Assembly (NCBI RefSeq): GCF_003350475.1
Contig: NZ_QQAV01000005.1
Coordinates: 62,001 to 126,000 of the forward strand
Length of the DNA stretch: 64,000 bases
Source: Pseudacidovorax intermedius
GTDB taxonomy: Bacteria > Pseudomonadota > Gammaproteobacteria > Burkholderiales > Burkholderiaceae_C
Direction: 5' to 3'
A program made the translations under genes and the position numbers. Of the stretch, positions 1 to 12,203 are shown one piece after another. The notes beneath the pieces were generated by a model. It searched no databases, was not told where the DNA came from, and was given only the letters and a program-made list of their open reading frames with translations. Numbering within the stretch: the first letter of the stretch is position 1; each line of letters opens with the position of its first letter.

Positions 1-360
1 TGGCAGCTCAGACATTGCGAACGCGCACAGAAGGTGGGAGCGTTCGTGCGATGACGAAAAGAAGTGCACGCTCTTTCCCAACAACTGCCGCTGAGTCACA
101 ACCACTTGGTCATGGTGACTGCCGCGGTAGCCGGCCACAACGTCCTGCTCTCGTGACGAGTCACCCGGCCACCAGCCCCCTTTGCATAGCACGTCGGGAA
201 CGCCCTGGAGTTCGGACAGGACGTCAAAGACGTCCGGGACGGACAGCGGTGAATGCCTGTACTTTGAGCCCTTCTCGGCCTCGATGGAAAACACTAAACG
301 GCCGTTCTCGACATATGCAAATGCTCCGTCGTGGCCAGGGTTATAGGAAAGTATTTTCAT
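1..360 (-). CDS. Carbamoyltransferase, CmcH/NodU family (N-terminal part, runs off the left edge)
   Basis: The frame opens at an ATG at 360 and stays open to base 1, so 120 residues are visible and the C-terminus is outside the window. The N-terminus shows the family start MKILSYNPGHDGAF (ASKHA-type nucleotide fold), then SIEAEKGS, a GGWW motif and SSSHERSHLLCAF, the conserved histidine segment of carbamoyltransferases such as 3-hydroxymethylcephem carbamoyltransferase (CmcH) and NodU. The family transfers carbamoyl from carbamoyl phosphate, via carbamoyl-adenylate, to a hydroxyl group. The start lies 8 bp after the stop of the fusion glycosyltransferase, so the two are co-transcribed; a carbamoylated glycan is the inferred product. 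Family assignment is from motifs only. Confidence 0.8.
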   Translation of the reverse strand, partial: MKILSYNPGHDGAFAYVENGRLVFSIEAEKGSKYRHSPLSVPDVFDVLSELQGVPDVLCKGGWWPGDSSREQDVVAGYRGSHHDQVVVTQRQLLGKSVHFFSSSHERSHLLCAFAMSELP

Positions 361-368
361 GCAGGGCC

Positions 369-2564
369 TCAGTTTGCCTCTGAAATGGTCAGGATGGGGC
401 CGAGCGCAACGCGAGTGTCGTGCGAGGATGGGTCGTGCTGCTTCGCGCGAATCGACTGCACATGGGTGATGGCGGGAAGCCAACGGGTACGAAGTCGCCC
501 CGCGAGTTCAGTGGATCGTGTCGGCCAGGTGTTGACATGTAGCTTCATGGGCAAATGGGGAATTGGGGTGGGATTCCAAAGCACACGTCGATGGACAAGC
601 CGGTCATCCACCCACCACTGGATCTCGCGCGGGGTCCATTCGATGGCATAGCGATGCATTCCGCTCGATGCATCGAAACCAAGATCAATATGGCTTGGGG
701 CACCGCGGTAGCCGTAGTCGAAAGGAGCACCTTCTCCTCCCGGGTTGTAGAACACGTTGACAAGGAGACGGCTTGGCATGTTGCCGGCAATCTCGATGTC
801 GATCTCCTGATGCGGGGAGTTGCGGTGAAGAAAAAATCCAGTAATCACCCCTGGTACGTTGGAAGTCTGGAAGGTTGACTCGAATCTCCCGTAAAGGTAG
901 TTGGCGCTGCTACTGAGTGCGCCTGCGCTGTACTGTCGTACCCCCAACTCTTCCCGTCGCACGGACAATATCGCGCCGTTTACACCGTCGAATTCGACGT
1001 TGAGTGGACGGAACAACGCCAGATTGCCAGTGAAGGTGTCGGACCTTGCAAACCATCGCGGCGTGTTCAGACGCTGCAAGCCATCCTCGACATCAACCCA
1101 TTGGCCTTCGCTCGGATGGCTGGTTGATGCGAGTTGAATGCCTGACCAGCAGCGGTTCTCAGATTCAATGACCCACGGCGACCGATCTCGCTGAGGGTTT
1201 GTGCGTTGGCGAGCAAGCTCAGGCTGGACGTGTGCATCGAGGATGGACCGTTGCCCCAAGTCCTTCAGCTTTGGGAACGAACACGAAGGAGGTGCGCACT
1301 TTAGGTATTCGCAAAGCGTCCGCCAAGCGTCGGGGTCCTCTGAATCAAGCACGACAACATCTGCGCCGTTAAGGCCGGATGGAGTATTCCAAGCAGCTTG
1401 GAGTGCGGCTTGCGCTTGAGGAACTGTCAAGACGAACTTTGCTTGTGGATAAGCACGTCGCAGGTCCCCGACTGCTGATTCCAGACATCCGATATTGACG
1501 TACGCGTTAAAAATGCGTTGATCACTGCCTTGGGAAAGCCTCGACATCTCCAGCAGTGGCAGTTCCTGCAGATCGCTGCAGCATCGGTATCCAAGCATTG
1601 AAAGCGCCATCGCCAAGGACGTCTGGCCTGAGTTCGGCGGACCAAACGCAAAGATAGGCACCTGAGTCGGACGAATGTTGAATAGGGCTGCGCCCTCGCT
1701 GTTGATCGCCCCAATCTTAGAGAGGCTGGGCAGGATCGAGTATGAATTTGTGGAGGTCGCGTCTGTTCTTTGGCGGACAAGTGAGCGCCTGGTGGCTCGT
1801 ACGTTCAGAACGTTAAACTGGTGATTGATCCAGAGATCGACTGGGCCGCGGCAAGGTAGTAGAGCAAGAAGTTTTTCTGCGCCTTTTCGGGAAAGGATGT
1901 AGCCTGACAAAAACCACAGCCCACGCACCGGCCGGAACACATTGCTCGATATAAACGTCTTCGGCGCGCCGTGCGTCGCTTCCATAAACGAAACGTAGAG
2001 GATATCAAATCCTTCGTGCTTTTCGCTTTCGCTCGCGACGTCTTTCCAAGCCTGGTCCAGGTGACGGGAAAAATTGGGATGAAACCATACGTCATCCTCA
2101 AGGATGAGAGCATGCCTCTGGGTACCCTGTGCAACTCGCCTCCAAACCTCAATGTGTGACCTGGCTACCGCCACTTCCGCCCTGCTCATTCGGATCGGTG
2201 CTTTGAGCTCGTAGTGAGTCGGAAGTGTCCGAGGTTGAGGTTCAACAAAAAGTTGATCTGCCAAGGTGTAGTAGGGATCGATTTCAGCGTCTTTGGAAGG
2301 ATCCTTAGAGAACCCTTTTGCATCAACAGCGGCATGCCGTTCCGCGAGGCTGAGAAGATCGTTCCCGTGTCTATCCCGTATGCGTTGAAGCTCCTGCTTG
2401 ATGCGCGTCCAACGCGTTGGCTGGCGTTCGAGGTTGATGACGTAGATCTTTTCAATGCTCTGCCCGTGTGACGCGCGATGAGTGCCAAAGGCACGCGAGG
2501 TCTGAATCGGAAGCATTTTGCGAAGGCCATGTCCCAGACGAAACGCCAGGCGAAGTGCGGCCAT
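369..2564 (-). CDS. Three-domain fusion: GT25 glycosyltransferase, sulfotransferase-like P-loop domain, GH16 glycosidase/transglycosylase
   Basis: A 731-residue protein with three recognisable parts. Residues about 40-260 are a glycosyltransferase family 25 domain (KIYVINLERQPTRW at 40, acidic EDD at 156-158, GYILSRKGAEKLL near 221). Residues about 300-440 resemble PAPS sulfotransferases: phosphate-loop-like FGPPNSGQTSL near 307, then WRTLCEYL and FPKLKD near the end. Residues about 478-720 are a GH16 domain with the ExDxE catalytic motif (E587, D589, E591). No signal peptide or membrane segment is seen, so the GH16 part should be cytoplasmic, which is odd. The start at 2564 was chosen because it lies 17 bp after the upstream stop; an ATG at 2693 is in frame but overlaps that gene by 112 bp. 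GC is lower than the rest of the window. Confidence 0.8.
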   Translation of the reverse strand: MAALRLAFRLGHGLRKMLPIQTSRAFGTHRASHGQSIEKIYVINLERQPTRWTRIKQELQRIRDRHGNDLLSLAERHAAVDAKGFSKDPSKDAEIDPYYTLADQLFVEPQPRTLPTHYELKAPIRMSRAEVAVARSHIEVWRRVAQGTQRHALILEDDVWFHPNFSRHLDQAWKDVASESEKHEGFDILYVSFMEATHGAPKTFISSNVFRPVRGLWFLSGYILSRKGAEKLLALLPCRGPVDLWINHQFNVLNVRATRRSLVRQRTDATSTNSYSILPSLSKIGAINSEGAALFNIRPTQVPIFAFGPPNSGQTSLAMALSMLGYRCCSDLQELPLLEMSRLSQGSDQRIFNAYVNIGCLESAVGDLRRAYPQAKFVLTVPQAQAALQAAWNTPSGLNGADVVVLDSEDPDAWRTLCEYLKCAPPSCSFPKLKDLGQRSILDAHVQPELARQRTNPQRDRSPWVIESENRCWSGIQLASTSHPSEGQWVDVEDGLQRLNTPRWFARSDTFTGNLALFRPLNVEFDGVNGAILSVRREELGVRQYSAGALSSSANYLYGRFESTFQTSNVPGVITGFFLHRNSPHQEIDIEIAGNMPSRLLVNVFYNPGGEGAPFDYGYRGAPSHIDLGFDASSGMHRYAIEWTPREIQWWVDDRLVHRRVLWNPTPIPHLPMKLHVNTWPTRSTELAGRLRTRWLPAITHVQSIRAKQHDPSSHDTRVALGPILTISEAN

Positions 2565-2581
2565 TGGGGCACGTGCCGGAT

Positions 2582-3454
2582 TCACAGCGTGTCCGGAAGA
2601 GATGCACGGTACGCCTGCTGATTGGAGAGTCTCCAGTTCCGCGAGTCGTTTCTGTAGCTGAGGGGCCACTGGCTGGTGGATGTCAGTTCCCAATCGTGCA
2701 CAACCATCAGCGCGTCAGGCGAGCATCCTTCGTTCAGAACTTCGAACACCGAGCGAGTGAGATTTCCAGGACCGGTAGTCGCTTGGACCTCGGGCAACCC
2801 ACTCGCGAGGTTCGCCTCAAGAGATTGAGTCGCGTTGAGCAATGCTCTTTCAACGATGGGGTGATTGGGCGACGCGATCAGGGGCGTCGTGTTGAAGTAG
2901 AAGATCCAACCCGGCTGGTTGGCGCCTGGTTCAGTGAATAGGGGAGGTTCAACCATCCGAGACGTTGAAATGTCGTAGCAGAATGGCTGGAGCTTCAGCC
3001 GCCCGTCCGCGAAAAATTGCTCGATAGGTGTGCCGTGGTACACGTCGTCGGCATCGATGTAGAAGCCTCCTTCCACGAGCACGTACGAGTATCGAAAGTA
3101 GTCCGACATCATCGAAGGGTGGTAGCACTTGTCGAAAGCGCTCTCATGGCGCGCCCCCAAGCGGTTTCGGATGAACGTTCTCGCTGCGCCCTCGTCAAAC
3201 ACCTCTATTTCGAATCCGATCTGTTCGAGTTGCTTCCATGAGTCCATGCAGGCTTTGACGTCTTCGGGCAATCGGTCCAGGTTGTTCCAGAACTGGACAA
3301 TTCGCCTGGGGATCGGGGTGGACCACGCCGTTAAGGCCAGTGTTGAGTCATGACGTCGCTGCACCATATCCCGCACGAAGTTGGATCGCGCGCGTTCGGC
3401 AGACCCGAGTGGATCGACTTGAGCGGTGTCGTTGGAGACGTTTACTTTGAGCAT
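2582..3454 (-). CDS. Glycosyltransferase, GT32-like (Gly_transf_sug / DXD family)
   Basis: 290 residues. The core reads IPRRIVQFWNN at about 48, SDYFRYSYVLVEGGFYID at 117-134 and a DAD motif at 134-136, the signature of sugar-binding DXD glycosyltransferases that work on capsule, LPS or other surface glycans with a nucleotide-sugar donor and divalent metal. It is the first gene of the three-gene low-GC operon running leftwards; 17 bp separate its stop from the chosen start of the fusion gene. No strong Shine-Dalgarno is visible. The donor sugar and acceptor cannot be told from the sequence. Confidence 0.8.
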   Translation of the reverse strand: MLKVNVSNDTAQVDPLGSAERARSNFVRDMVQRRHDSTLALTAWSTPIPRRIVQFWNNLDRLPEDVKACMDSWKQLEQIGFEIEVFDEGAARTFIRNRLGARHESAFDKCYHPSMMSDYFRYSYVLVEGGFYIDADDVYHGTPIEQFFADGRLKLQPFCYDISTSRMVEPPLFTEPGANQPGWIFYFNTTPLIASPNHPIVERALLNATQSLEANLASGLPEVQATTGPGNLTRSVFEVLNEGCSPDALMVVHDWELTSTSQWPLSYRNDSRNWRLSNQQAYRASLPDTL

Positions 3455-3697
3455 CTTTGCGTTAGCCCTTTGGATTATGAAAATTTTCGATATTGCAGCA
3501 TAGGTTTAGGGAAGGTTTGCAAAACTCGACTTGCTGTGCACGCCATTGCTTGCACTGGACGAGGTACTTCTTCCGCTTTTTTGCGCAGCACGAGATCCGC
3601 GCGGCCGTCGGTCTGGACCGTCGGCTACCGCTGCAAAGCAGCCGGCGAAGACGGAAATAGTGGTCGCCGACTCCTGTATCCCGCCCGAGTACTAGGC
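3455..3697. other. Junction between low-GC glycan island and high-GC chromosome
   Basis: About 240 bases without a credible gene. Bases 3470-3530 are AT-rich and should hold the promoter of the leftward glycan operon, but no clear -35/-10 pair could be set. From about 3570 the composition turns GC-rich. A short open stretch reading EIRAAVGLDRRLPLQSS ends in a stop near 3658 and may be the tail of a lost gene; it was not recognised. No tRNA, inverted repeat or IS end marks the boundary. Confidence 0.4.
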
Positions 3698-3856
3698 ACG
3701 GTCTTCGACCGCTTCTTTCGTGTGCCAGGCGGCAACACGGACGGCAGCGGGCTGGGCCTGGCGATTGCGCAGGCCGCCGCCTCTCGCTGCGGCATGACGC
3801 TCAGCCTGCGGAATCGCGAAGACCGCAGCGGCCTGGTGGCGCGGCTTGAGCAGTAA
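3698..3856 (+). pseudogene. Remnant of a sensor histidine kinase (C-terminal ATPase end only)
   Basis: Only the last 52 codons of a HATPase domain survive: VFDRFFRVPGG is the F box and GSGLGLAIAQAAASR the G2 box of two-component sensor kinases, followed by a normal kinase ending and a stop. No start codon, dimerisation domain or N box precedes it; the sequence upstream is unrelated and meets the low-GC island. The most likely reading is that insertion of the glycan island, or a linked deletion, removed the rest of the kinase. No partner response regulator is in the window. Confidence 0.7.
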
Positions 3857-3924
3857 GCGACTGCTGGCGCCATGCTCGGCGAGCTCAAGAGCCGCCGCGC
3901 CGGCGTACCTGCCCAGCCGGGTAT

Positions 3925-3938
3925 TTGACAGAGCGCAA
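3925..3938 (+). promoter_or_regulatory. Possible FNR/DNR-type half-matching site upstream of the stress protein
   Basis: TTGA, six bases, GCAA matches the FNR consensus TTGA-N6-TCAA at seven of eight positions and sits 125 bp before the universal stress gene. Anaerobic control of Usp genes by FNR-like regulators is known in proteobacteria. The TTGACA could equally be a -35 box, although no good -10 follows. Weak evidence. Confidence 0.25.
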
Positions 3939-4063
3939 ATCGCATTCCTGAAGGACGCGCACGATAGCGACATCCCTTCTTCGTCGATGGGATGCGTCCG
4001 TTCCGCCTTGTGCGCCGACGCGGCGAGACGCTCGTGCCGTCGGCGCATGCGAGAGGCGCAACC

Positions 4064-4888
4064 ATGTCGACCCTAGCCCGATCCATCCTCGTCCACCTCG
4101 ACAGCTCGCCGCACGGCGCCGCGCGGCTGAGACTCGCGGCGGAGCTCGCGCAGGCCTTCGATGCGCACTGCCATGCGCTCCCGTGCATCCTCAGCGCGTA
4201 CGAGCGCTACCCCTATGCCATGGATTTCACCGGTGCGGCGCTGTCGTCGCTCCAGACCCTGGATCGGGAGGCGCTCGACCGGGCGCGGACGACCTTCGAC
4301 ATCGTGGCCGCCGACTCGGACCGCATCAGCTGGCTGTCGCCGCGCGGCAGCACGCCCTGGGCCTTCGCGCAGTGCGCGCTGTTCCACGACCTGGTGGTGC
4401 TGGGTCAGCGCGATCCGTCCGATCCGCAGGTGGACGAGGTTTCCGCCGGCTTTGCCAGCGCCGTGATGATCGCGAGCGGCAAGCCCACGCTGATGGTGCC
4501 GTGGGCGGGCCGCTTCGACATCCTGGGCCGGCGCGTGCTGGTGGCCTGGCGGCCGACGCGGGAGTGCGCCAGGGCCGTCTCAGCGGCCATCCCTTGGATG
4601 CGGCTTGCGCGGGGCGTCGACCTGGTGTCGTATTCGGACGCGGCCCTGCAGGAACTGGCGCCGTTGAAGGAGTACCTGCAACAGCACGGCATCGACGCCG
4701 TTGTGCATGACGGCGGGCGCGAGCACGGCGACGCGCCCGAGCGCCTGCTGTCGCTCGCCGCCGATCTGGGCTCCGGGCTGCTGGTCATGGGTTGCTGGGG
4801 CCACAGTCGCGTCCACGAATGGGCGACGGGCGGGATGACACGCAGCGTGCTGGCGTCGATGACCCTGCCGGTGTTGATGGTGCACTGA
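4064..4888 (+). CDS. Universal stress protein, tandem UspA domains
   Basis: 274 residues, about twice a single Usp domain, so two Usp folds in tandem. The second half ends with the ATP-binding style motif GCWGHSRVHEWATGGMTRS (about 243-261), matching G-x2-G-x9-G-S/T; the first half keeps the SILVHLDSSPHG start but a weak nucleotide motif. Such cytoplasmic proteins help survival under oxygen, starvation or redox stress. GAGAGG at 4051 precedes the chosen ATG at 4064; a longer upstream frame from 3992 lacks a ribosome site and is low-complexity. It lies alone between the kinase remnant and the LysR gene. Confidence 0.85.
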   Translation: MSTLARSILVHLDSSPHGAARLRLAAELAQAFDAHCHALPCILSAYERYPYAMDFTGAALSSLQTLDREALDRARTTFDIVAADSDRISWLSPRGSTPWAFAQCALFHDLVVLGQRDPSDPQVDEVSAGFASAVMIASGKPTLMVPWAGRFDILGRRVLVAWRPTRECARAVSAAIPWMRLARGVDLVSYSDAALQELAPLKEYLQQHGIDAVVHDGGREHGDAPERLLSLAADLGSGLLVMGCWGHSRVHEWATGGMTRSVLASMTLPVLMVH

Positions 4889-5178
4889 CCGGCGGCTTGC
4901 ACCGGGCGCTGGCGCCGCGCGGCCCGCCCTATCCGCCTGGCAGTGCACGTCTCGCGCGACCACAAGCACAAGATCCACAGCCTGTTGGTCAAGGAGCTCG
5001 GCACAGAGGTGAACCTGCCCAACCTGGAGCGGGAGGGGCTCTACATCACCGAGCCGGGCCGTTCGCATACTCATGGGCCTACCGGCTCGCGGGTTCGGCC
5101 CGGCCGATTGAGGCGGCGGCCGGGGGCCGGAGGGATGCCCGGATGGCGCCGAGCACGTCGCGCCCGGATACTGCCGCC
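4889..5178 (+). other. Spacer with a short unassigned open frame
   Basis: A GTG-started frame at 4943-5182 contains a protein-like stretch, HVSRDHKHKIHSLLVKEL and VNLPNLEREGLYITEPG, that then decays into Arg/Gly-rich sequence. It has no clear ribosome site and matches no family known to me. It may be a decayed gene tail or leader for the LysR gene. No function is proposed. Confidence 0.25.
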
Positions 5179-6138
5179 ATGAGACTCACCCTGCGCCAGC
5201 TGCGCTATTTCGTCGCCATCGCGCAAGGCCGCAGCTTCTCGCGGGCGGCGGCACAGCTGGCCATCGCCCAGCCGGCACTGAGCCAGAACATCGCCACGCT
5301 CGAAGCGCTGATGGGCGCCCGGCTGTTCGAGCGGCATGCCCGGGGCGTGGACCTGTCGCCGGCGGGCGAGCGCTTGCTGGTCGAGGCCATGGACCTGCTG
5401 GCGCGGCTGGACACCCTGCCGGCCCAGGTCGCGGGCACCGAGGCACGCATCCAGGGCGTGGTGCGCCTGGCGATGGCCGGCTCGCTGGCGGCCGTGGTCG
5501 TGGCGCCACTGCTGCGGCAGGTGCAGGAGCGCCATCCCGGCGTGTCATTGGACGTGAGCGAGGGCCTGTCGTCCGAAGTCCGCATGCGACTCGAATCAGG
5601 GCGCGTGCACCTGGCGGTAATGCCGGGCGCGTCGGAGCTTCAGGGCATCGCTTCCATGCCGCTCTACGAGGAGCGATTCATGCTCTACGGCGCCGTCGGG
5701 GCGATGCAGGCACTGCCGGCCACGCCCTCTTTCGCGCGGGTGGCAGGCCTGCCGCTGGCCGAGCCCGACGGCGCGCATGACCTGCGAAAGATCATCGAGC
5801 GCGCCGCCACGCAGCAGGGTCTGCGACTGGATGTGCGCTACGAGCTGAACAGCCCGCCGATGCTGATGGCGGTGGTCCGCGAGGGCCTGGCTTTCGCCAT
5901 CATGCCGCCCAGTGCCTGCGTGGATGCGGTGGCGTTGGGTGATGTGGCGGGCCGTGCGATTCGCGGCGGTGACCTCGCACGGGTGCAGGCCGTGGCCTGG
6001 CCCGAAAGTCCCGTTCCGGGTCCGGCAGAGATCGCGGTCCGCGACCTCGTCGTCCAGGTGGTGCATGGCCTTATCGCGCAGGGGCGGCTGCCGGGCCGGC
6101 GTCTGCGGCCGTCTTCGACGACCAGCACCGCGCCATAA
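5179..6138 (+). CDS. LysR-family transcriptional regulator
   Basis: 319 residues. The winged helix-turn-helix fills residues about 3-62 (LTLRQLRYFVAIAQGRSFS, then AQPALSQNIATLEALMGARL), followed by the periplasmic-binding-like effector domain from about 92. The spacing and ending resemble the NAC/CynR group of LysR proteins. It precedes, on the same strand and 112 bp away, the sulfatase-dehydrogenase-Bug operon and is its probable regulator, with the sulfate ester or a breakdown product as possible inducer. The gap to the sulfatase holds a small palindrome, CTGCGTCGCAG at 6155-6165, of unproven role. Confidence 0.9.
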   Translation: MRLTLRQLRYFVAIAQGRSFSRAAAQLAIAQPALSQNIATLEALMGARLFERHARGVDLSPAGERLLVEAMDLLARLDTLPAQVAGTEARIQGVVRLAMAGSLAAVVVAPLLRQVQERHPGVSLDVSEGLSSEVRMRLESGRVHLAVMPGASELQGIASMPLYEERFMLYGAVGAMQALPATPSFARVAGLPLAEPDGAHDLRKIIERAATQQGLRLDVRYELNSPPMLMAVVREGLAFAIMPPSACVDAVALGDVAGRAIRGGDLARVQAVAWPESPVPGPAEIAVRDLVVQVVHGLIAQGRLPGRRLRPSSTTSTAP

Positions 6139-6250
6139 GAAAAAACGAAGGCTGCTGCGTCGCAGACGGTATTGGACGCCGCTGCCGCCAGGTTGCAAAG
6201 TGCCGACATCGTGCCCTTCCAGCGGCATGCATTCCACGGAGACAACCGCC

Positions 6251-7699
6251 ATGAGCCGACGCAACCTTGTCGTCATCATGTCCGACGAGCACGACCCGCG
6301 CATCATGGGCTGCTCCGGGCATCCTTTCGTCCAGACGCCCCATCTCGACGCCCTGGCGGCGCGGGGTCAGCATTTCACTAACGCGTACACGCCCAGCCCC
6401 ATCTGCGTGCCGGCGCGGGCGGCCTTCGCCACCGGTCTGCGCGTGCACCAGCTGCGCCTTTGGGACAACGCCATGCCTTACACGGGTCGTCAGCGCGGCT
6501 GGGGGCATGTGCTGCAGGACCATGGCGTGCGCGTCGAGAGCATCGGCAAGCTGCACTACCGGAGCGAGGAAGACCCGGCCGGCTTCGATGCCGAGCACCT
6601 GCCCATGCACGTGGTGGGCGGCCACGGCATGGTGTGGGCCTCGATCCGCAATCCCTACCGCCCGCGCCCCGATGGTCCGCGCATGCTGGGCGAGCGCATC
6701 GGCCCGGGCGAGTCCTCTTACACGCAGTACGACCGCTCGGTGACGGCGCGCACAGTGGAGTGGCTGCGCGACGCAGGCAGCCGACCCGAAGAGCCCTTCG
6801 TGCTGTACGTGGGCCTGGTCGCGCCGCACTTTCCGCTGGTCGTGCCGCAGGCCTTCTACGATCTCTATCCGCTGGACGGGCTCGGGGAGCCCAAGCTGCA
6901 CCCCGGGACGGGCTATGCGCGGCATCCATGGGTGCAGGAATACTGCGACTTCATGGGCTCGGAAGAGAAGTTCAAGGACGCCGACGAGCGCCGCCGCGCC
7001 TTCGCGGCCTACTATGGCCTCGTCTCCTGGCTCGACCACAACGTGGGGCAGATCCTCGGCGCGCTCGACGACAGCGGCCTGGGCGCCAACACCCAGGTCG
7101 TCTACACATCGGACCATGGCGACAACCTGGGCGCCCGAGGTGTCTGGGGCAAGAGCACGCTCTATGAGGAGAGCGTGAAGGTGCCCATGCTGCTGGCGGG
7201 CCCCGACGTGGAGCCGGGCGTGTGCCGCACGCCGGTCGACCTGCTCGACTTGTTCCCGACCATCCTGGAGTCGGCCGGCATCGACCCGGCGCCGGAGATG
7301 GGCGAGCGGCCCGGCCGCTCGCTCTTCGACATCGCCCGTTCGCCCGAGGAGCCTGAACGGCCGGTGCTCTCGGAATACCACGCCGCCGGCAGCAACTCGG
7401 CGGGCTTCATGCTGCGTCGGGGCCGCTGGAAGTACCACCACTACGTTGGCTTCGCGCCCGAGCTCTTCGACCTGGCCACCGACCCCGAGGAACTGCATGA
7501 CCTGGCCGGCGATTCGGCGCATGCCGGCACACTGGCGGACATGCGCGCCGCGCTGGGCCGGATCTGCGACCCCGACGCGGTGGATGCCCTGGCCAAGGCC
7601 GATCAGGCGGCCTTGATCGAGGGCTACGGTGGCATCGAAAAGGCGCACACGCTGGGCTCGTCGACATCGACCCCCGTGCCCGCAGGTGCGACGTCATGA
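6251..7699 (+). CDS. Type I sulfatase (arylsulfatase / choline-sulfatase-like)
   Basis: 482 residues of the alkaline-phosphatase superfamily. The N-terminus NLVVIMSDEHDP carries metal-binding acidic residues and the sulfatase signature is PICVPARAAFATG with C52; that cysteine must be oxidised to formylglycine to hydrolyse sulfate esters. SDHGDNLGARGVWGKSTLYE later completes the Ca-binding site. No signal peptide, so cytoplasmic. GGAG at 6238 supports the start at 6251. Its stop overlaps the next start by four bases, tying sulfate-ester cleavage to the following dehydrogenase. Phosphonate monoester hydrolases share this fold and cannot be excluded. Confidence 0.85.
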   Translation: MSRRNLVVIMSDEHDPRIMGCSGHPFVQTPHLDALAARGQHFTNAYTPSPICVPARAAFATGLRVHQLRLWDNAMPYTGRQRGWGHVLQDHGVRVESIGKLHYRSEEDPAGFDAEHLPMHVVGGHGMVWASIRNPYRPRPDGPRMLGERIGPGESSYTQYDRSVTARTVEWLRDAGSRPEEPFVLYVGLVAPHFPLVVPQAFYDLYPLDGLGEPKLHPGTGYARHPWVQEYCDFMGSEEKFKDADERRRAFAAYYGLVSWLDHNVGQILGALDDSGLGANTQVVYTSDHGDNLGARGVWGKSTLYEESVKVPMLLAGPDVEPGVCRTPVDLLDLFPTILESAGIDPAPEMGERPGRSLFDIARSPEEPERPVLSEYHAAGSNSAGFMLRRGRWKYHHYVGFAPELFDLATDPEELHDLAGDSAHAGTLADMRAALGRICDPDAVDALAKADQAALIEGYGGIEKAHTLGSSTSTPVPAGATS

Positions 7700-9042
7700 G
7701 CAGCACTGTGCTTGAGGTCGACATCGACCCGCGCTTCCTGGCCGACTGGAGCGGCCTGCAAGGCGGCCGTCCGCGCGAGGTGCTGCGACCGGTGTCCACG
7801 GCCGAGGTGTCCGCCATCCTGCGGCGCTGCCATGCCGAGGGCCAGCGCGTGACCATCCAGGGCGGCATGACCGGCGTGGCCGGCGGCGCGGTGCCCGACG
7901 CCGGCGATGTGGTGATCAACCTGGAGCGCATGAACCGCATCGAATCGCTCGATGACATCGAAGGCTTGATGCAGGTGCAGGCAGGCGCCACGCTGCAGAG
8001 CGTGCAGGAGGCGGCTGCCGCCGCGGGCTGGCAGTTCGCGGTCGATCTTGGCGCGCGCGGCAGTTGCCAGGTGGGCGGCAATGCCGCGACCAACGCCGGT
8101 GGCATCCGGGTGCTGCGCTACGGGACCATGCGCGACCAGGTCCTGGGCGTGGAGGCCGTGCTGGCGGACGGCACCGTCGTCGAGTCGCTGGGGCGGCTCA
8201 TCAAGAACAGCACGGGGCTGGAGGCGCGCCAGCTCTTCGTCGGCACCGAGGGCACGCTGGGCGTCATCACGCGGCTGACGCTGAGGCTGCATCCACCGAT
8301 GGGCGAACCGCAGGCGGCGTGGGTGTCGGCCTCGCGCTTCGAGCATCTGCCCGCGTTGCTGCGCCGGTTGCGGCAGAGGCTGGGTGCATCGCTGTGCGCA
8401 TTCGAGTTCATGTCGGGCGACTTCGTCGCGCTGGCCTCGCAGCTCAGCGGCACGACGCCGCCGCTGGCCGATGCGCCATGGCACGTGCTGGTGGAGGTGG
8501 CCGGCGAAGCGCATGCGAGCCCGAGCCATCTGGCGGAAGCCCTGCAGGCCGGTCTGGCCGATGCCGTGGAGGCCGGTGAGATCGACGACGCCGCCCTAGC
8601 AGCGTCGCTGGCCCAGCGCGAGGCTTTCTGGCGGTTGCGTGAAGCCATCCCCGAAGTGCTCACGCATCTGAAGCCCGCCGGCGCCTACGACGTGGGACTG
8701 CCTTGGCGCGAGACCGGTCCGTATGTGCAGCAGGTGGATGCGGCGCTGCGCGCCGCCTTGCCAGAGGCCCGTCACCTGTTCCTGGGCCACCTGGGCGACA
8801 ACAACCTGCACCTCATCTGCGGCCCGCTCGACGACGCCACCCAACATGCCGTGTGCGACCGCATCGTCTACGAGGGTCTGCGCGGGCGCAGCGGCACGGT
8901 GAGCGCCGAGCATGGCGTGGGCCGGCTCAAGAAGGAGGTCCTCGCCATCACCCGAGGGGGGAGCGAGTTGGCGCTGGCCCGGCGCATCAAGGCGGCGCTG
9001 GACCCGACTGGCATCCTGAACGTGGGGCGCGTCATGGACTGA
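7696..9042 (+). CDS. FAD-binding D-2-hydroxyacid dehydrogenase (GlcD / D-lactate dehydrogenase type)
   Basis: 448 residues. A PCMH-type FAD-binding domain covers about 25-205 (VTIQGGMTGVAGGAVPDAGD, GGNAATNAGGIRVLRYG), and an FAD-oxidase C-terminal domain follows, ending with HLGDNNLHL and SAEHGVGRLKKE, which hold the metal- and substrate-binding histidines of D-lactate, glycolate and D-2-hydroxyglutarate dehydrogenases. It oxidises a D-2-hydroxyacid and passes electrons to a quinone or electron-transfer flavoprotein. The ATG overlaps the sulfatase stop (ATGA), so it probably acts on the alcohol acid released by desulfation. Confidence 0.88.
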   Translation: MSSTVLEVDIDPRFLADWSGLQGGRPREVLRPVSTAEVSAILRRCHAEGQRVTIQGGMTGVAGGAVPDAGDVVINLERMNRIESLDDIEGLMQVQAGATLQSVQEAAAAAGWQFAVDLGARGSCQVGGNAATNAGGIRVLRYGTMRDQVLGVEAVLADGTVVESLGRLIKNSTGLEARQLFVGTEGTLGVITRLTLRLHPPMGEPQAAWVSASRFEHLPALLRRLRQRLGASLCAFEFMSGDFVALASQLSGTTPPLADAPWHVLVEVAGEAHASPSHLAEALQAGLADAVEAGEIDDAALAASLAQREAFWRLREAIPEVLTHLKPAGAYDVGLPWRETGPYVQQVDAALRAALPEARHLFLGHLGDNNLHLICGPLDDATQHAVCDRIVYEGLRGRSGTVSAEHGVGRLKKEVLAITRGGSELALARRIKAALDPTGILNVGRVMD

Positions 9043-9092
9043 GATCCGCGCGCCCCCGATTTCGAAGACGACAAGAAGCACGGAGACAAGCG

Positions 9093-10073
9093 ATGAAAAG
9101 ACGAGACATCCTGACGGCACTGGGCGCCGCACCGGCCGCCCTGACGCTGCCCCGCCTGGCAAGCGCGCAGGCCTGGCCCAACCAGCCGATCCGCATGGTC
9201 GTGCCGTATGCGGCCGGCGGCGGCATCGACGCCGTGGCGCGCCTCATCGCCAAGGCGATGGGCGAGGACCTGGGCCAAAGCCTGGTGGTGGACAACCGGG
9301 GCGGCGCGGGCGGCATGCTGGGCGCCGAGATCGTGGCCCGCGCCGCGCCGGACGGCTACACCGTGCTGTTCGCCGGCAACCCGGAGCTCACCATCACGCC
9401 CTGGTTGCAGAAGGCGAGCTACCAGCCGCTGGTCGACTTCAAGCCGGTGGAACTGGTGTCGCAGTCGCCGAGTGTGATCGCCTGTCTGCCGACCCTGGGT
9501 GCGGCCACACTGCGCGACGCCCTGGCCGCGGCGAAGAAGCGGCCGGGTGGCATCACCATCGGCACGCCAGGCAATGGCTCGCCGATGCACGTGGCAGTGG
9601 AACTGCTGCGCGCGCAGAGCGGGCTGGACATCGTGCATGTGCCCTACAAGGGCGCAGGCCCGGCCACCGTGGCGCTGCTGGGCGGCGAGATCGCCTTCGC
9701 CCTGGTGGGTGCGCCACCGCTGCTGCCGCACATCAACGCCGGCAAGATCCAGGCGCTTGCCGTGACGCAGCCGCAGCGCTCGCCGCTGCTGGCGCAGGTG
9801 CCCACGATCGGCGAAGCCATGGGCTTCATGAAGGATGTCGATTTCGTGGCCTGGTACGGGCTGCTGGTACCGGCCAAGGCCCCGGCAGAGGTGGTGGACC
9901 GCCTCCAGAAGTCTGCGGCATCCGCACTGGCTCAGCCTGCAGTGCGTGAGCGACTGCAAGCGCTGGGCACGGATCCGGTTGCCATGCCGGCTGTACCTTT
10001 TGCAGAGCGCATGAAGACCGAGTCGGCGCAGTACCAGCAGATCATTCAGCGCTTCCAGATCAAGGCGAACTGA
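9093..10073 (+). CDS. Bug/TctC-family periplasmic substrate-binding protein
   Basis: 326 residues. The leader MKRRDILTALGAAPAAL looks like a Tat-type signal ending near ASAQA. Mature parts are classic Bug: PIRMVVPYAAGGGIDAVAR, VVDNRGGAGGMLGAEIVA, APDGYTVLF, and VPYKGAGPATVALLGGE. These proteins bind organic acids with a water-mediated carboxylate clamp. GGAG at 9082 sets the start. It closes the LysR-sulfatase-dehydrogenase operon; no TctA or TctB membrane gene is near, so it serves a distant permease or signals ligand. Confidence 0.9.
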   Translation: MKRRDILTALGAAPAALTLPRLASAQAWPNQPIRMVVPYAAGGGIDAVARLIAKAMGEDLGQSLVVDNRGGAGGMLGAEIVARAAPDGYTVLFAGNPELTITPWLQKASYQPLVDFKPVELVSQSPSVIACLPTLGAATLRDALAAAKKRPGGITIGTPGNGSPMHVAVELLRAQSGLDIVHVPYKGAGPATVALLGGEIAFALVGAPPLLPHINAGKIQALAVTQPQRSPLLAQVPTIGEAMGFMKDVDFVAWYGLLVPAKAPAEVVDRLQKSAASALAQPAVRERLQALGTDPVAMPAVPFAERMKTESAQYQQIIQRFQIKAN

Positions 10074-10109
10074 GCGCGTGCGTGCAAAGGGGCGGTGCCG
10101 AAGAGTCTG

Positions 10110-11426
10110 CTAGCCGGCGAGCCGCGTTGCCAACCCCTTGGCCTGTCGCGCCGTGGCGCCCTTGCCCGTGATCGCCACGGCCGGCGCATGCGCGAGCATG
10201 CCCTCGAACACGGCGCGCACTTCATGGGCACCGATGTCCTCGATCAGTGCCAGCGCCTCGTCCATGGGCATCACCGTGCCGGTGGCCAGCAGCTCTTCCA
10301 CCGCCTGCTCCATCGTCCCGTAAGTGCGTTCGGCGGTGCGCACGCGCGACACGGTCAGCTGGTTGCGAGCGCGCTCCAGGTGCACGGGGTCGATGGCCGC
10401 CGCATGCGCGCGCAGCAGATCGCCAGTGGCCGCGACCAGCGCGTCCAGCTTGTCCGGCGTGGTCACGGCACTGACCACGAAGTTGGCCCAGATGTCGCCC
10501 TTGTCGATGCTGGCGTCCACGGTGTAGGCGAGGCCCAGTTTCTCGCGGATGGTGTCCGACAGGGGCGACGACATGCCGCTGCCCAGCAGGTTGGCGGCCA
10601 GCTGGGCCGTGAGGCGCCAGCGTGTCTGCGCCACGGCCTGCGGGTCCGAGGGCGCGATGGGATAGGCGATGTTCACGAACACCTGAGACACCTGGGTGAA
10701 GCGCCGCGCCAGCGCCTGGCCGACGTAGGCGGCAGGCACAGGCGCCTGGGTCGCTGGTGCAGCAGGTGACGCCGGCATGGCCCCGAAGAGTTCTTCCGCC
10801 AGCGCCATCCAGCCTTCGACGTCGAAGTGGCCGGCCGCCGCCACGATGGTCTTGTCGGCCACGTAGTGCGCCTGCACATGGCGCACGAGATCGTCGCGGC
10901 GGAAGCCTTCGATGTTCTCCAGCGTGCCGATCACCGGCATGCCCATCGACGCATCGCCCCAGATGGCGCGGTCGAGCAGGTCGTCGGCGCTGTCCTGCGG
11001 GTCCTCGTCGTACTCGATGGCCTCCTGCCGGATCACCTCCAGCTCGCGCTGCAGTTCGTCTTCGGGAAAGGTGCTGTTGAGCACGATGTCCGCCGTCATG
11101 CTCAGCAGGTGGTTGGCATGCCGGCCCAGGCCGGTCATGAAGTAGGCGGTGCTGTCCTTGCCGGTGAAGGCGTTGACGTCGGCGCCCAGGCGCTCGGCGT
11201 CGAGGTTGATGGCCTGCACCGAGCGCGTGGCCGTGCCCTTGAAGGCCATGTGCTCCAGCACATGGCTGATGCCGTTGGTGGCCGGCGTCTCGTCGCGCGA
11301 GCCAACGCGCAGGAAGACGCCGACGCTGGCGCTCTGCACCTGCGGCATGGGCACGGCGAGCAGGCGCACGCCGTTGGGCAAGGTGCGAAGGACGGTGGCC
11401 GCGGGCGAGCCGGAGATCGACGCCAT
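10110..11426 (-). CDS. M16-family zinc metallopeptidase (processing-peptidase-like)
   Basis: 438 residues, the usual size of a single-chain bacterial M16B peptidase. The inverted zinc motif is present as HVLEH (H55, E58, H59) and the third ligand region appears downstream as ELEVIRQEAIEYDEDPQD. The C-terminal half is the non-catalytic M16 repeat with SPLSDTIREKLGLAYTVDAS. No signal peptide, so cytoplasmic. Its ATG lies three bases after the stop of the XRE gene. Members cleave small peptides or process precursors; the substrate here is unknown. Confidence 0.88.
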   Translation of the reverse strand: MASISGSPAATVLRTLPNGVRLLAVPMPQVQSASVGVFLRVGSRDETPATNGISHVLEHMAFKGTATRSVQAINLDAERLGADVNAFTGKDSTAYFMTGLGRHANHLLSMTADIVLNSTFPEDELQRELEVIRQEAIEYDEDPQDSADDLLDRAIWGDASMGMPVIGTLENIEGFRRDDLVRHVQAHYVADKTIVAAAGHFDVEGWMALAEELFGAMPASPAAPATQAPVPAAYVGQALARRFTQVSQVFVNIAYPIAPSDPQAVAQTRWRLTAQLAANLLGSGMSSPLSDTIREKLGLAYTVDASIDKGDIWANFVVSAVTTPDKLDALVAATGDLLRAHAAAIDPVHLERARNQLTVSRVRTAERTYGTMEQAVEELLATGTVMPMDEALALIEDIGAHEVRAVFEGMLAHAPAVAITGKGATARQAKGLATRLAG

Positions 11427-11429
11427 CGT

Positions 11430-11687
11430 TCAGCGGTCCTGCGGTGGCTGCGGCTGCACGCCGATGCCGTACAGCGCCAGCAGGCCGACCATGTGGCCGA
11501 CGGAGACGCCCGGCTCGCCGGATTCGATGCGGCCGATGGTCTGCACGTGCACGCCCAGGCGCGCAGCCGCGGCGGCCTGGCCTTCGCCGGCGGCCAGCCG
11601 GGCCGCCTTGGCCGCGGCGCCGAGGGTCTGGATGGTGTGGAGGGCGTCGTCGCCGATGTCGGTGGAAATGCGCTTGCCTTGGGCCAT
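11430..11687 (-). CDS. Small XRE-type helix-turn-helix regulator
   Basis: 85 residues. A single Cro/XRE helix-turn-helix spans about 25-80: AKAARLAAGEGQAAAAARLG, then VHVQTIGRIESGEPGVSVG and a final hydrophobic helix MVGLLALYGIGV. No effector domain is fused. It is the first gene of a two-gene unit with the M16 peptidase, three bases apart, so it may control or be co-expressed with it. The first ATG after the intergenic sequence, at 11687, was chosen; the longer open frame upstream reads antisense to the MarR gene. Confidence 0.75.
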   Translation of the reverse strand: MAQGKRISTDIGDDALHTIQTLGAAAKAARLAAGEGQAAAAARLGVHVQTIGRIESGEPGVSVGHMVGLLALYGIGVQPQPPQDR

Positions 11688-11771
11688 CGGGGCATTCTCG
11701 CCGGCCCTCTGGGTCCGAGATGTTCCGGGGCGGCTGGCCCCGGGTCGGGTGCTTAAACTGATCGCGGCCCC

Positions 11772-12203
11772 ATGACGCACAGAACCTTCGACCTCCAAGC
11801 CCACCTGCCCTACCTGCTGCGGCGCGCCCACTTCGCGGCCGACGCCATCTTCAGCCAGGTCTATGGCACGGACTTCACGTCCCGGCAGCTGGCGCTGCTG
11901 GTGGCGATCGCCCAGCGGCCCGGCATCTCGCAGATCCAGGCGGCCCAGGAGATCGGCCTCGATGCCAACACCTGCAGCGACCTGGTCATGCGCGCCATCG
12001 GCAAGGACCTGCTTCGGCGCGAAAAGTCGCCAATCGATGCCCGGCAGTTCTGCCTCTATCTCACACCCGCAGGTGAAGATGTGCTGGACCATGGCCTGGC
12101 TCTTGCCCGCGAATACCAGGCCGAGGTGTCGCGCCGGTTGAGCGAGGCCGAGCGCGAGCAACTGGCCGCCCTGCTGCGCAAGATGCTCGATTTCGGCGGC
12201 TGA
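11772..12203 (+). CDS. MarR-family transcriptional regulator
   Basis: 143 residues, standard MarR size. A winged helix lies at about 35-105 (TSRQLALLVAIAQRPGISQI, then QEIGLDANTCSDLVMRAI and the beta-wing around KSPIDARQFCLYLTPAGE), flanked by dimerisation helices. It lies directly upstream of, and on the same strand as, the hydrolase-led catabolic operon, and an 18-bp imperfect palindrome sits between them. It is probably the ligand-released repressor of that operon. Confidence 0.88.
   Translation: MTHRTFDLQAHLPYLLRRAHFAADAIFSQVYGTDFTSRQLALLVAIAQRPGISQIQAAQEIGLDANTCSDLVMRAIGKDLLRREKSPIDARQFCLYLTPAGEDVLDHGLALAREYQAEVSRRLSEAEREQLAALLRKMLDFGG

Follow-up and report, generated by a model that had tools for sequence, protein, structure and literature searches.

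The described enzymes closest to those of a small gene cassette in Pseudacidovorax intermedius are the O-carbamoyltransferases of the NodU/TobZ/CmcH type, the GT32 glycosyltransferases Och1 and SetA, the GT25 enzymes (LPS-type and collagen galactosyltransferases), and the GH16 lichenases and Crh-type transglycosylases. GT25 and GT32 genes are common in lipopolysaccharide (LPS) and capsule loci, and NodU modifies an exported sugar. Known defence systems consist mostly of nucleases, NTPases, and TIR or other nucleotide-signalling enzymes. The cassette occupies the same genomic places as Gabija, Wadjet and the P2-hotspot systems (a Gabija site in a sister genome, Gabija and Wadjet neighbourhoods, and the portal side of a P2-like prophage), but it differs from them in that no nuclease or ATPase domain was found by Pfam in its three proteins, which are carbohydrate-active enzymes instead. 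Among open-access papers, no title or opening of an abstract dealt with this gene combination.

Genomic Location of the Cassette

The window analysed here is a stretch of 64,000 nucleotides, and the cassette lies at its left edge. Three genes are encoded on the minus strand: a GT32 gene (2582..3454), a fusion gene (369..2564) and a carbamoyltransferase gene, of which the first 120 codons lie at 1..360. All three frames are real, with gaps of 17 bp (GT32/fusion) and 8 bp (fusion/carbamoyltransferase). In 500-bp windows, the GC content was 0.54–0.59 over 1–3500, compared with 0.67–0.73 from 3751 to 12000 and 0.66–0.75 in the 16 kb left of the block; the three-gene block had about 56% GC and the chromosome about 70%. 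Based on GC and flank comparison, positions 1..3600 (no strand) form the right part of a foreign block of only about 5 kb (approximately C5:60.4–65.6 kb). The block reaches about 1.5 kb beyond the left edge of the window, and its last gene ends 1.27 kb beyond that edge. The flanks of the island are common to sister genomes, which have other DNA in between. A direct repeat of 22 bp (86%) flanks the island at L003:4520-4541 and 9504-9525. Because 26 direct-repeat families of comparable strength were found, this one was not claimed as an attachment site.

Neither the island nor its surroundings showed an export, flippase or polymerase gene; the left neighbours, named by eye, were an epimerase, an amidohydrolase and Bug-like binding proteins. 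A hydropathy scan of the window's two core proteins found no strong hydrophobic segment. An earlier note on this DNA had described three leftward genes of the same families, with the same gaps and a GC content below that of the flanks, and the frames, Pfam domains and GC values agree with that description. It had also placed the glycan on the cell surface, against which stand the left neighbours, the absence of visible export genes and the hydropathy result.

Domains and Conserved Motifs of the Three Proteins

The Pfam matches of the three proteins were all above Pfam's own cut-offs. The first core gene encodes 290 aa and was assigned to GT32 from Pfam, profile comparison and RefSeq naming, the E. 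coli homologue being named "glycosyltransferase family 32 protein". It matched Gly_transf_sug (PF04488) at 2e-5, with 25.6 bits against a cut-off of 23. The single sequence gave no match to solved structures at 0.1, and a profile of 53 GT32 homologues matched Och1 at 1.7e-5 and SetA weakly, at 0.17. The alignment comprised the window and 52 of the 57 listed rows (L077, L091, L115, L116 and L123 were left out). In its 53 rows, D134 and D136 of the D-x-D-D motif (residues 134–137, 3044..3055, minus strand) were invariant and D137 was present in at least 90%; the role of this motif is assumed here. The domain, the D-x-D and the profile match are shared with Och1 and, for the first two, SetA, and the cassette enzyme differs from both in adjoining the fusion.

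The second core gene starts with the ATG at 2564 and encodes a protein of 731 aa in which Pfam identified GT25, sulfotransferase-like and GH16 domains, all on the minus strand. Its AF2 model (mean pLDDT 81.9) opens with a basic N-terminal helix, which could attach the fusion to the membrane. The fusion alignment comprised the window and 70 of the 80 genome-scan loci, with L067, L087 and L118 (stops), L109 (N), L100, L102, L103, L106, L116 and L121 omitted; a reduced alignment also lacked L045, L077 and L112. The GT25 domain (residues 38–243, 1836..2453) matched PF01755 (Glyco_transf_25) at 3e-15, and its acidic E-D-D motif (residues 156–158, 2091..2099), presumably functional, was found in 71 of 71 rows. 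These features and a sequence match to procollagen galactosyltransferase 1 are shared with described GT25 enzymes, from which the window's domain differs by its place in a three-domain fusion.

The GH16 domain (residues 539–695, 480..950) matched PF00722 (Glyco_hydro_16) at 1e-28 and has the lichenase fold, with VIA Z values of 27.1 to 3i4i and 23.1 to Crh5. E587, D589 and E591 of the motif E-I-D-I-E (residues 587–591, 792..806), which we take to be catalytic, were conserved in 71 of 71 rows. Fold and E-x-D-x-E motif are those of lichenases and Crh-type transglycosylases, but the cassette domain follows a glycosyltransferase and a sulfotransferase-like domain in one fused protein. It is probably cytosolic, because the fusion has no strong hydrophobic N-terminal segment.

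The middle domain (residues 304–381, 1422..1655) looks degenerate. The window fusion matched Sulfotransfer_4 (PF17784) only borderline, at 2e-5 over profile positions 2–97 of 215, and the same family matched in 68 of 68 rows of the reduced alignment. The domain was folded and searched alone because GH16 hits took up the PDB lists obtained with the complete fusion, and its closest folds were SgdX2 (Z 10.2) and Cpz8 (Z 9.5). The usual 5'-phosphosulfate (PAPS) loop has a basic residue ahead of Ser/Thr-Gly, and this pattern was found in 0 of 71 fusion homologues; a basic residue stood at this position only in L097, where the next glycine is lost, while SgdX2 has R there. In SgdX2, two successive aligned stretches are separated by about 69 residues, and the part missing from the middle domain is presumably the 3'-phosphate site region. 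On the loop pattern and the shortened length, sulfation by this domain is not supported. Given its sulfotransferase fold and its presence in all 68 rows, the domain may have an unusual activity.

The carbamoyltransferase of 541 aa starts at 360 on the minus strand and continues 1,266 bases past the left edge of the window (L003:4735-6360). It matched Carbam_trans_C and Carbam_trans_N at 7.8e-53 and 7.5e-22, respectively, and TobZ at 4.6e-32 among solved structures. Among the most similar carbamoyltransferases of known structure, TobZ, GdmN and the novobiocin enzyme act on antibiotics. The motifs H-E-R-S-H (H105, H109) and G-P-R-A-L-G-N-R-S (G374-S382), whose roles we assume, were present in at least 97% of 45 cassette members. 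With both domains, both motifs and the TobZ match, the protein belongs to the NodU/TobZ-type O-carbamoyltransferases, but it scored 255.9 bits against the NCBIfam NodU equivalog (nodulation) cut-off of 1000, and it travels with GT32 and the fusion. When 300 genomes of the order were searched with it, 57 gave a match, the best beyond its own copy at 37% identity.

Distribution and Mobility of the Cassette

Homology to the fusion yielded 88 loci, and 80 of the 148 genome-scan loci found were kept. GT32 stood beside the fusion in 83 of the 88 loci and the carbamoyltransferase in 54, and any other family occurred in at most 6. The complete three-gene order was found in 43 loci from many genomes and is more than chance. 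No carbamoyltransferase was seen in 34 loci, four of which had less than 1.7 kb of contig left downstream. Each of 27 genomes carried one copy only. The cassette was present in 1 of 15 genomes of its own genus and 1 of 397 other genomes of a phylum sample, and a full-length fusion was found in 1 of 250 genomes of a family sample, its own.

Hosts ranged from Pseudomonadota and Bacteroidota through to Actinomycetota isolates. The phylum labels of two loci were taken as bin contamination because of near-identity to other loci: L045 (Methylomirabilota) was 99.97% identical to L058 (Burkholderiaceae) over the whole 5,788 bp, and L112 (Fusobacteriaceae) was 99.1% identical to L110 (Aliarcobacter). 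Related copies were 90–95% identical between genera or classes. Haliea and Cupriavidus share a 3,478-bp unit with 95.3% identity, and the rest of the 22 kb had no match. Copies were also carried on plasmids, and E. coli has a two-gene version (WP_172408789.1 and the fusion WP_172408790.1) on a probable ICE, which was detected only with the Klebsiella copy as the query; a search with the window's own DNA found none. The fusion had no match in a phage collection. On the L125 contig, a single gene separates the cassette from the portal gene of a P2-like prophage, the kind of place reported to be an anti-phage hotspot (PMC9122126).

Genes Adjacent to the Cassette

At the same chromosomal site, sister genome G551 carries Gabija (GajA 2.2e-259, GajB 1.5e-232); no PADLOC model was matched by the third protein beside Gabija or by two further inserts at this site in the genus. 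Neighbours were compared with PADLOC for 20 of the 27 long-contig loci, including the close relatives L076 and L077. At 1e-20, the 132 neighbours matched 146 models, a count of models rather than proteins and redundant because many are Gabija models, and the 137 control proteins matched 2; the controls came from other chromosome stretches of the same contigs rather than from other mobile cargo. Three proteins, all long, had been set aside, namely 2 of the 134 neighbours and 1 of the 138 controls. By this excess over other stretches of the same contigs, the cassette counts as a defence-island gene set. Unrelated mobile cargo also gathers in defence islands.

The systems named beside copies were Gabija, Wadjet, Zac, TmtA, BilD, bSEFIR and LmuB. 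Three plasmid neighbours matched PDC-S06, Orf5 and NsnA at 8.5e-158, 2.1e-169 and 6.7e-33, respectively, and 3 of 10 large neighbours picked by hand had no match at 1e-40. The three cassette proteins themselves matched no PADLOC 2.0 model at 0.01. Drug-resistance genes adjoin one plasmid copy, and L058, which is among the closest relatives (76%), has DegT and flippase-like genes 4–7 kb downstream.

Discussion

We consider the locus a self-contained mobile cassette with an optional carbamoyltransferase, whose likeliest role is in conflict with phages or other mobile elements (probability about 0.55). At the level of sequence, it is a conserved unit transferred across genera and classes, and its neighbourhood is enriched in defence genes. 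The GT25, GT32, GH16 and carbamoyltransferase signatures are intact, and the sulfotransferase-like domain is degenerate. The earlier note had read a transferred locus that makes and then trims or transglycosylates a carbamoylated, perhaps sulfated, surface glycan. Transfer holds, given the GC content, the rarity in the genus, the other DNA at the sister site and the related copies across genera or classes; the carbamoyltransferase is a true family member, and the GH16 domain with its intact catalytic residues could perform either reaction. The surface and sulfate parts are not supported. The same gene order was indeed found in other genomes, and the wide distribution, mobility and enrichment beside defence genes had escaped that note.

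These three properties point to phage conflict over a plain glycan pathway. The main alternative is that a lipid-linked O-antigen, capsule or other envelope glycan is modified at the inner membrane face, changing surface antigens or hiding phage receptors. The frequency of GT25 and GT32 in LPS and capsule loci, the likeness to NodU, the basic helix and the polysaccharide-type genes downstream in L058 would suit it, but no export, flippase or polymerase gene recurs among the loci, the core proteins have no strong hydrophobic segment, and GH16 sits behind cytosolic-looking domains. Because the hosts span several phyla, a common surface acceptor is also hard to see, and we regard this alternative as unlikely.

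Metabolic or stress cargo that makes a carbamoylated sugar unrelated to phages and hitchhikes in mobile hotspots would fit the resistance and metabolic genes that adjoin some copies, and also the proteins at the genus hotspot that match no known defence model. Defence models were, however, far commoner beside the 20 copies than in the matched control, and one copy lies in a P2-like phage hotspot, which makes such cargo improbable. A diffusible carbamoylated glycoside that blocks phages or competitors, comparable to carbamoylated antibiotics, would fit the antibiotic-acting relatives of the carbamoyltransferase and the resemblance of the middle domain to Cpz8 and SgdX2; with no recurrent scaffold gene or exporter, and with 34 of the 88 loci lacking a visible carbamoyltransferase, it appears very improbable.

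Under the preferred reading of phage conflict, the proteins would act in the cytosol. From nucleotide sugars, GT32 and GT25 would assemble a short glycan on an acceptor in the cytosol; candidates are a phage or host protein, a nucleic acid or an inner-leaflet lipid. The GH16 domain would cut or transfer a beta-linked piece of this glycan, and the pseudo-sulfotransferase domain might hold a nucleotide or the glycan end without sulfating it. The carbamoyltransferase, where present, would cap a hydroxyl with a carbamoyl group from carbamoyl phosphate and ATP. On infection, such modification of the target would arrest the growth of the phage or of the cell. From the sequence comparisons we infer that the cassette probably has anti-phage activity and that its acceptor is probably among these candidates.

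More tentatively, and at somewhat under even odds, the cassette would represent a new class of immunity made wholly of carbohydrate-active enzymes, in which, during infection, a cytosolic machine of two glycosyltransferases and GH16 attaches and processes a glycan on a molecule of the phage or the host, with carbamoylation as an option, and which has spread over many phyla via plasmids, conjugative elements and prophages. Because E. coli has a two-gene version, the defence reading is directly testable with standard strains and phages. If it is true, a widely shared glycan-enzyme cassette would bring to immunity a chemistry so far not associated with it, and it would raise the tractable question of which cytosolic molecule is glycosylated and carbamoylated.

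The island and its chromosomal site

The island consisted of three minus-strand genes: a GT32 gene (290 aa, window 2582-3454, Pfam Gly_transf_sug), a fusion gene (731 aa counted from the ATG at 2564, window 369-2564, Glyco_transf_25, Sulfotransfer_4 and Glyco_hydro_16), and an O-carbamoyltransferase gene (541 aa, both carbamoyltransferase domains). The last ran leftwards from window 360 (L003:4735-6360, where L003 is contig NZ_QQAV01000005.1, 56,001-72,000), the contig left of window base 1 supplying its remainder. The families named in the earlier note held, with all Pfam domains over Pfam's own cut-offs, GT32 and sulfotransferase only barely. The gaps of 17 bp (GT32/fusion) and 8 bp (fusion/carbamoyltransferase) were confirmed, as was the low GC: this small block of about 5 kb in a 5.98-Mb genome had a GC content of 0.54-0.59, against about 0.70 on either side. 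A 22-bp direct repeat (86%) lay outside the three genes at L003:4520-4541 and L003:9504-9525 (right copy, window 3504-3525) and may be either an attachment site or a chance match.

Of 15 genomes in the genus, one had the fusion (cut-off 1e-30); in a sample of 250 genomes from the family, one had it at full length and 17 others gave partial matches only. The DNA of the left flank was 94-96% identical in four sister genomes. In G551, both flanks were on a single contig (95% identical) and enclosed a complete Gabija pair (L179:2928-6549; GajA 2.2e-259, GajB 1.5e-232), beside which a 429-aa protein without a Pfam or PADLOC match was encoded on the opposite strand. The inserts of G550 and G549 encoded a 1,641-aa protein on DNA of 41-51% GC (L181:10702-15627) and a 731-aa protein (L182:3259-5454), respectively; neither matched PADLOC or Pfam, and both may be undescribed defence genes. 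The right flank showed 88% identity in G550, while in G549 the USP-like gene was absent and the match began farther out, at 85%. In G546, the two flanks were on separate contigs. Since different inserts lie between shared flanks, the site is a turnover hotspot. Window 3683-3856 (plus strand) resembles the C terminus of a sensor histidine kinase, with a GSGLGLAIAQ box that we take to be the motif of such kinases; G551 has the same stretch, which looks like the relic of a gene at the hotspot's right edge.

Distribution and gene order of the cassette

In the plasmid collection, nine records covered 80% or more of the fusion (Citrobacter IncC, Rhizorhabdus wittichii, Klebsiella michiganensis, four Aliarcobacter, Sphingobium and Rhizobium), and scanning genomes with seven aligned fusions as the query gave 148 relatives. 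The window locus, six plasmid records that were read, the best 80 of the 148 genome relatives and one viral locus formed a set of 88 loci. Queried with the three window proteins, these loci matched the fusion, GT32 and carbamoyltransferase in 88, 83 and 54 cases, respectively. The gene order noted in the window, GT32-fusion-carbamoyltransferase, was present in 43 of 88 loci; GT32-fusion alone was found in 32, a divergent carbamoyltransferase in six, and the carbamoyltransferase first in two. The Sphingobium (L043) and Rhizobium (L044) plasmid copies had the carbamoyltransferase first. Of the five loci without GT32, three were truncated by the contig start (L100, L102, L103), L121 had only a shortened fusion, and L124 gave no GT32 match. 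The carbamoyltransferase is the optional component. No widespread fourth family recurred beside the cassette among the 88 loci, the next gene cluster (an integrase by eye) being present in six. Pairwise identities of the fusion correlated with those of GT32 (0.88, 75 loci) and of the carbamoyltransferase (0.67, 49 loci), values reached by 0 of 500 permutations, which indicates that the genes mostly travel together. Each of 27 genomes examined had one copy of the fusion (E <= 1e-50), and the fusion was rare: among 397 further genomes from the phylum, one had it (1e-60).

Several copies were irregular. On pSWIT02 of R. wittichii RW1 (L040:12783-13604), the carbamoyltransferase was split by a gene annotated as an IS4-family transposase. 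In an Aliarcobacter butzleri plasmid (L042:9077-9926), the annotation divides the GT32 region into two short frames, pointing to a broken copy. A copy on a Candidatus Beckwithbacteria chromosome (L119, Patescibacteria) had two internal stops in the genome search and none in the shorter stretch used for the fusion alignment. Sinorhizobium plasmids NZ_CP023069, NZ_CP029233 and NZ_CP035039 showed 79% identity over 71% of the carbamoyltransferase; as none is among the nine full-fusion records, these may be cassette remnants.

Mobility

The earlier proposal of a transferred locus was supported by the low GC, by the rarity in the genus, by the different DNA that sister genomes carry at this site, and by related copies that are 90-95% identical between genera or classes. 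Haliea (L101) and Cupriavidus (L115), which belong to different classes, had 3,478 bp in common at 95.3% and nothing else matching in 22 kb; Acidovorax and Hydrogenophaga shared 5,112 bp at 89.8%, and two Sphingomonas 4,812 bp at 90%. A quick tree of 71 fusions (the window and 70 genome loci) spanned 20 phylum labels, two of them contamination and many others from single metagenome bins, with at least seven changes for Pseudomonadota on starred branches. In 17 of 20 genomes, the cassette had a lower GC content than the matched control. In E. coli, a two-gene version (at least 80% query coverage) occurred in 4 of 5,426 genomes, two of these being one strain. The three copies read were chromosomal, beside an integrase pseudogene and amid VirB, MobC and ArdC genes, which make an ICE the probable carrier; an ABC-three-component system lay about 8 kb or more upstream.

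The viral-contig collection held three full-length copies. In L125, a portal gene (phrog_68, 1e-136), with terminase and head genes adjoining, and a DNA methyltransferase gene preceded the cassette operon, families and an order that we take to be those of a P2-like prophage. This contig stops at the carbamoyltransferase and covers the portal side, not the gpA side. PMC9122126 reports the cos-proximal gpQ-gpA region of E. coli P2-like phages as an anti-phage hotspot. In L212, OLD-like and UvrD-like genes (by eye) were close to the cassette.

Enzyme domains and predicted location

Residues E156-D157-D158 of GT25 and E587, D589 and E591 of GH16 were present in 71 of 71 rows, and D134 and D136 of GT32 in 53 of 53. 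The GH16 part had a lichenase fold (Z 27.1 to 3i4i, 207 residues, 2.1 A; Z 23.1 to the Crh5 transglycosylase), and the carbamoyltransferase matched TobZ, GdmN and a novobiocin enzyme. The middle domain of the fusion had a sulfotransferase-like fold (nearest SgdX2, Z 10.2; Cpz8, Z 9.5), and Sulfotransfer_4 matched 68 of 68 fusion rows. However, the sulfated product suggested earlier was not supported: about 69 residues of SgdX2 are absent from the fusion, and none of 71 rows fitted the usual sulfotransferase loop, L097 alone having a basic residue there without the following glycine. The loop was entirely lost in the L043 and L044 plasmid fusions.

The main alternative to an anti-phage role is modification of a surface glycan, the product proposed in the earlier note, which had pointed to the contig left of base 1 for export or polymerase genes. 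None was seen around the island when L003 was read by eye; epimerase, amidohydrolase-like and Bug-like binding protein genes lay to the left instead, and a USP-like gene to the right. In L058, among the closest relatives, DegT and flippase-like genes were downstream of the cassette, and Fic, HipA, HTH/M78 and NYN genes surrounded it. Peaks of 19-residue hydropathy were 0.92, 0.66 and 1.73 for the window fusion, GT32 and carbamoyltransferase, respectively, and exceeded 1.6 in 3 of 84 fusions, 0 of 78 GT32 and 2 of 53 carbamoyltransferases, one of these being that of the window. The cassette proteins are therefore predicted to be probably cytosolic, and an N-terminal helix possibly touches the membrane. 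The surface glycan of the earlier note was thus not supported.

Defence genes around the cassette

Up to seven nearest genes (100-1200 aa) were taken from 20 of 27 long-contig loci (134 taken, 132 scanned), with a 20-kb stretch elsewhere on the same 20 contigs as the control, using the same gene caller (138 taken, 137 scanned). At 1e-20, cassette neighbours matched 146 PADLOC models, which are redundant and count models rather than distinct proteins, versus two (one protein each) for controls, which represent other chromosome and not other mobile cargo, the chief weakness of the comparison. At 1e-60, the 25 of 47 models listed included Wadjet JetA and JetC, Gabija GajA and GajB, ZacB and ZacC, TmtA, BilD, PDC-S06 and a type I methyltransferase. 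Seven of ten hand-picked large neighbours matched PADLOC at 1e-40, in L088 (both Gabija genes), L096, L105, L085, L080 and, only via a helicase stretch, L049; the three in L048, L074 and L083 had no match at this threshold. Three plasmid neighbours of our choosing matched as well.

The cassette is a compact, mobile and widely shared set of glycan enzymes. Compared with other chromosome, it is over-represented beside known defence genes, and it is located at known or local defence hotspots. Its novelty rests on two points: its architecture, and the fact that neither PADLOC 2.0 nor the literature searched includes it. If it modified a surface glycan, it would be a version of something already known in kind. 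We infer instead that the cassette probably serves in anti-phage defence, through a cytosolic glycan product that would optionally be carbamoylated.
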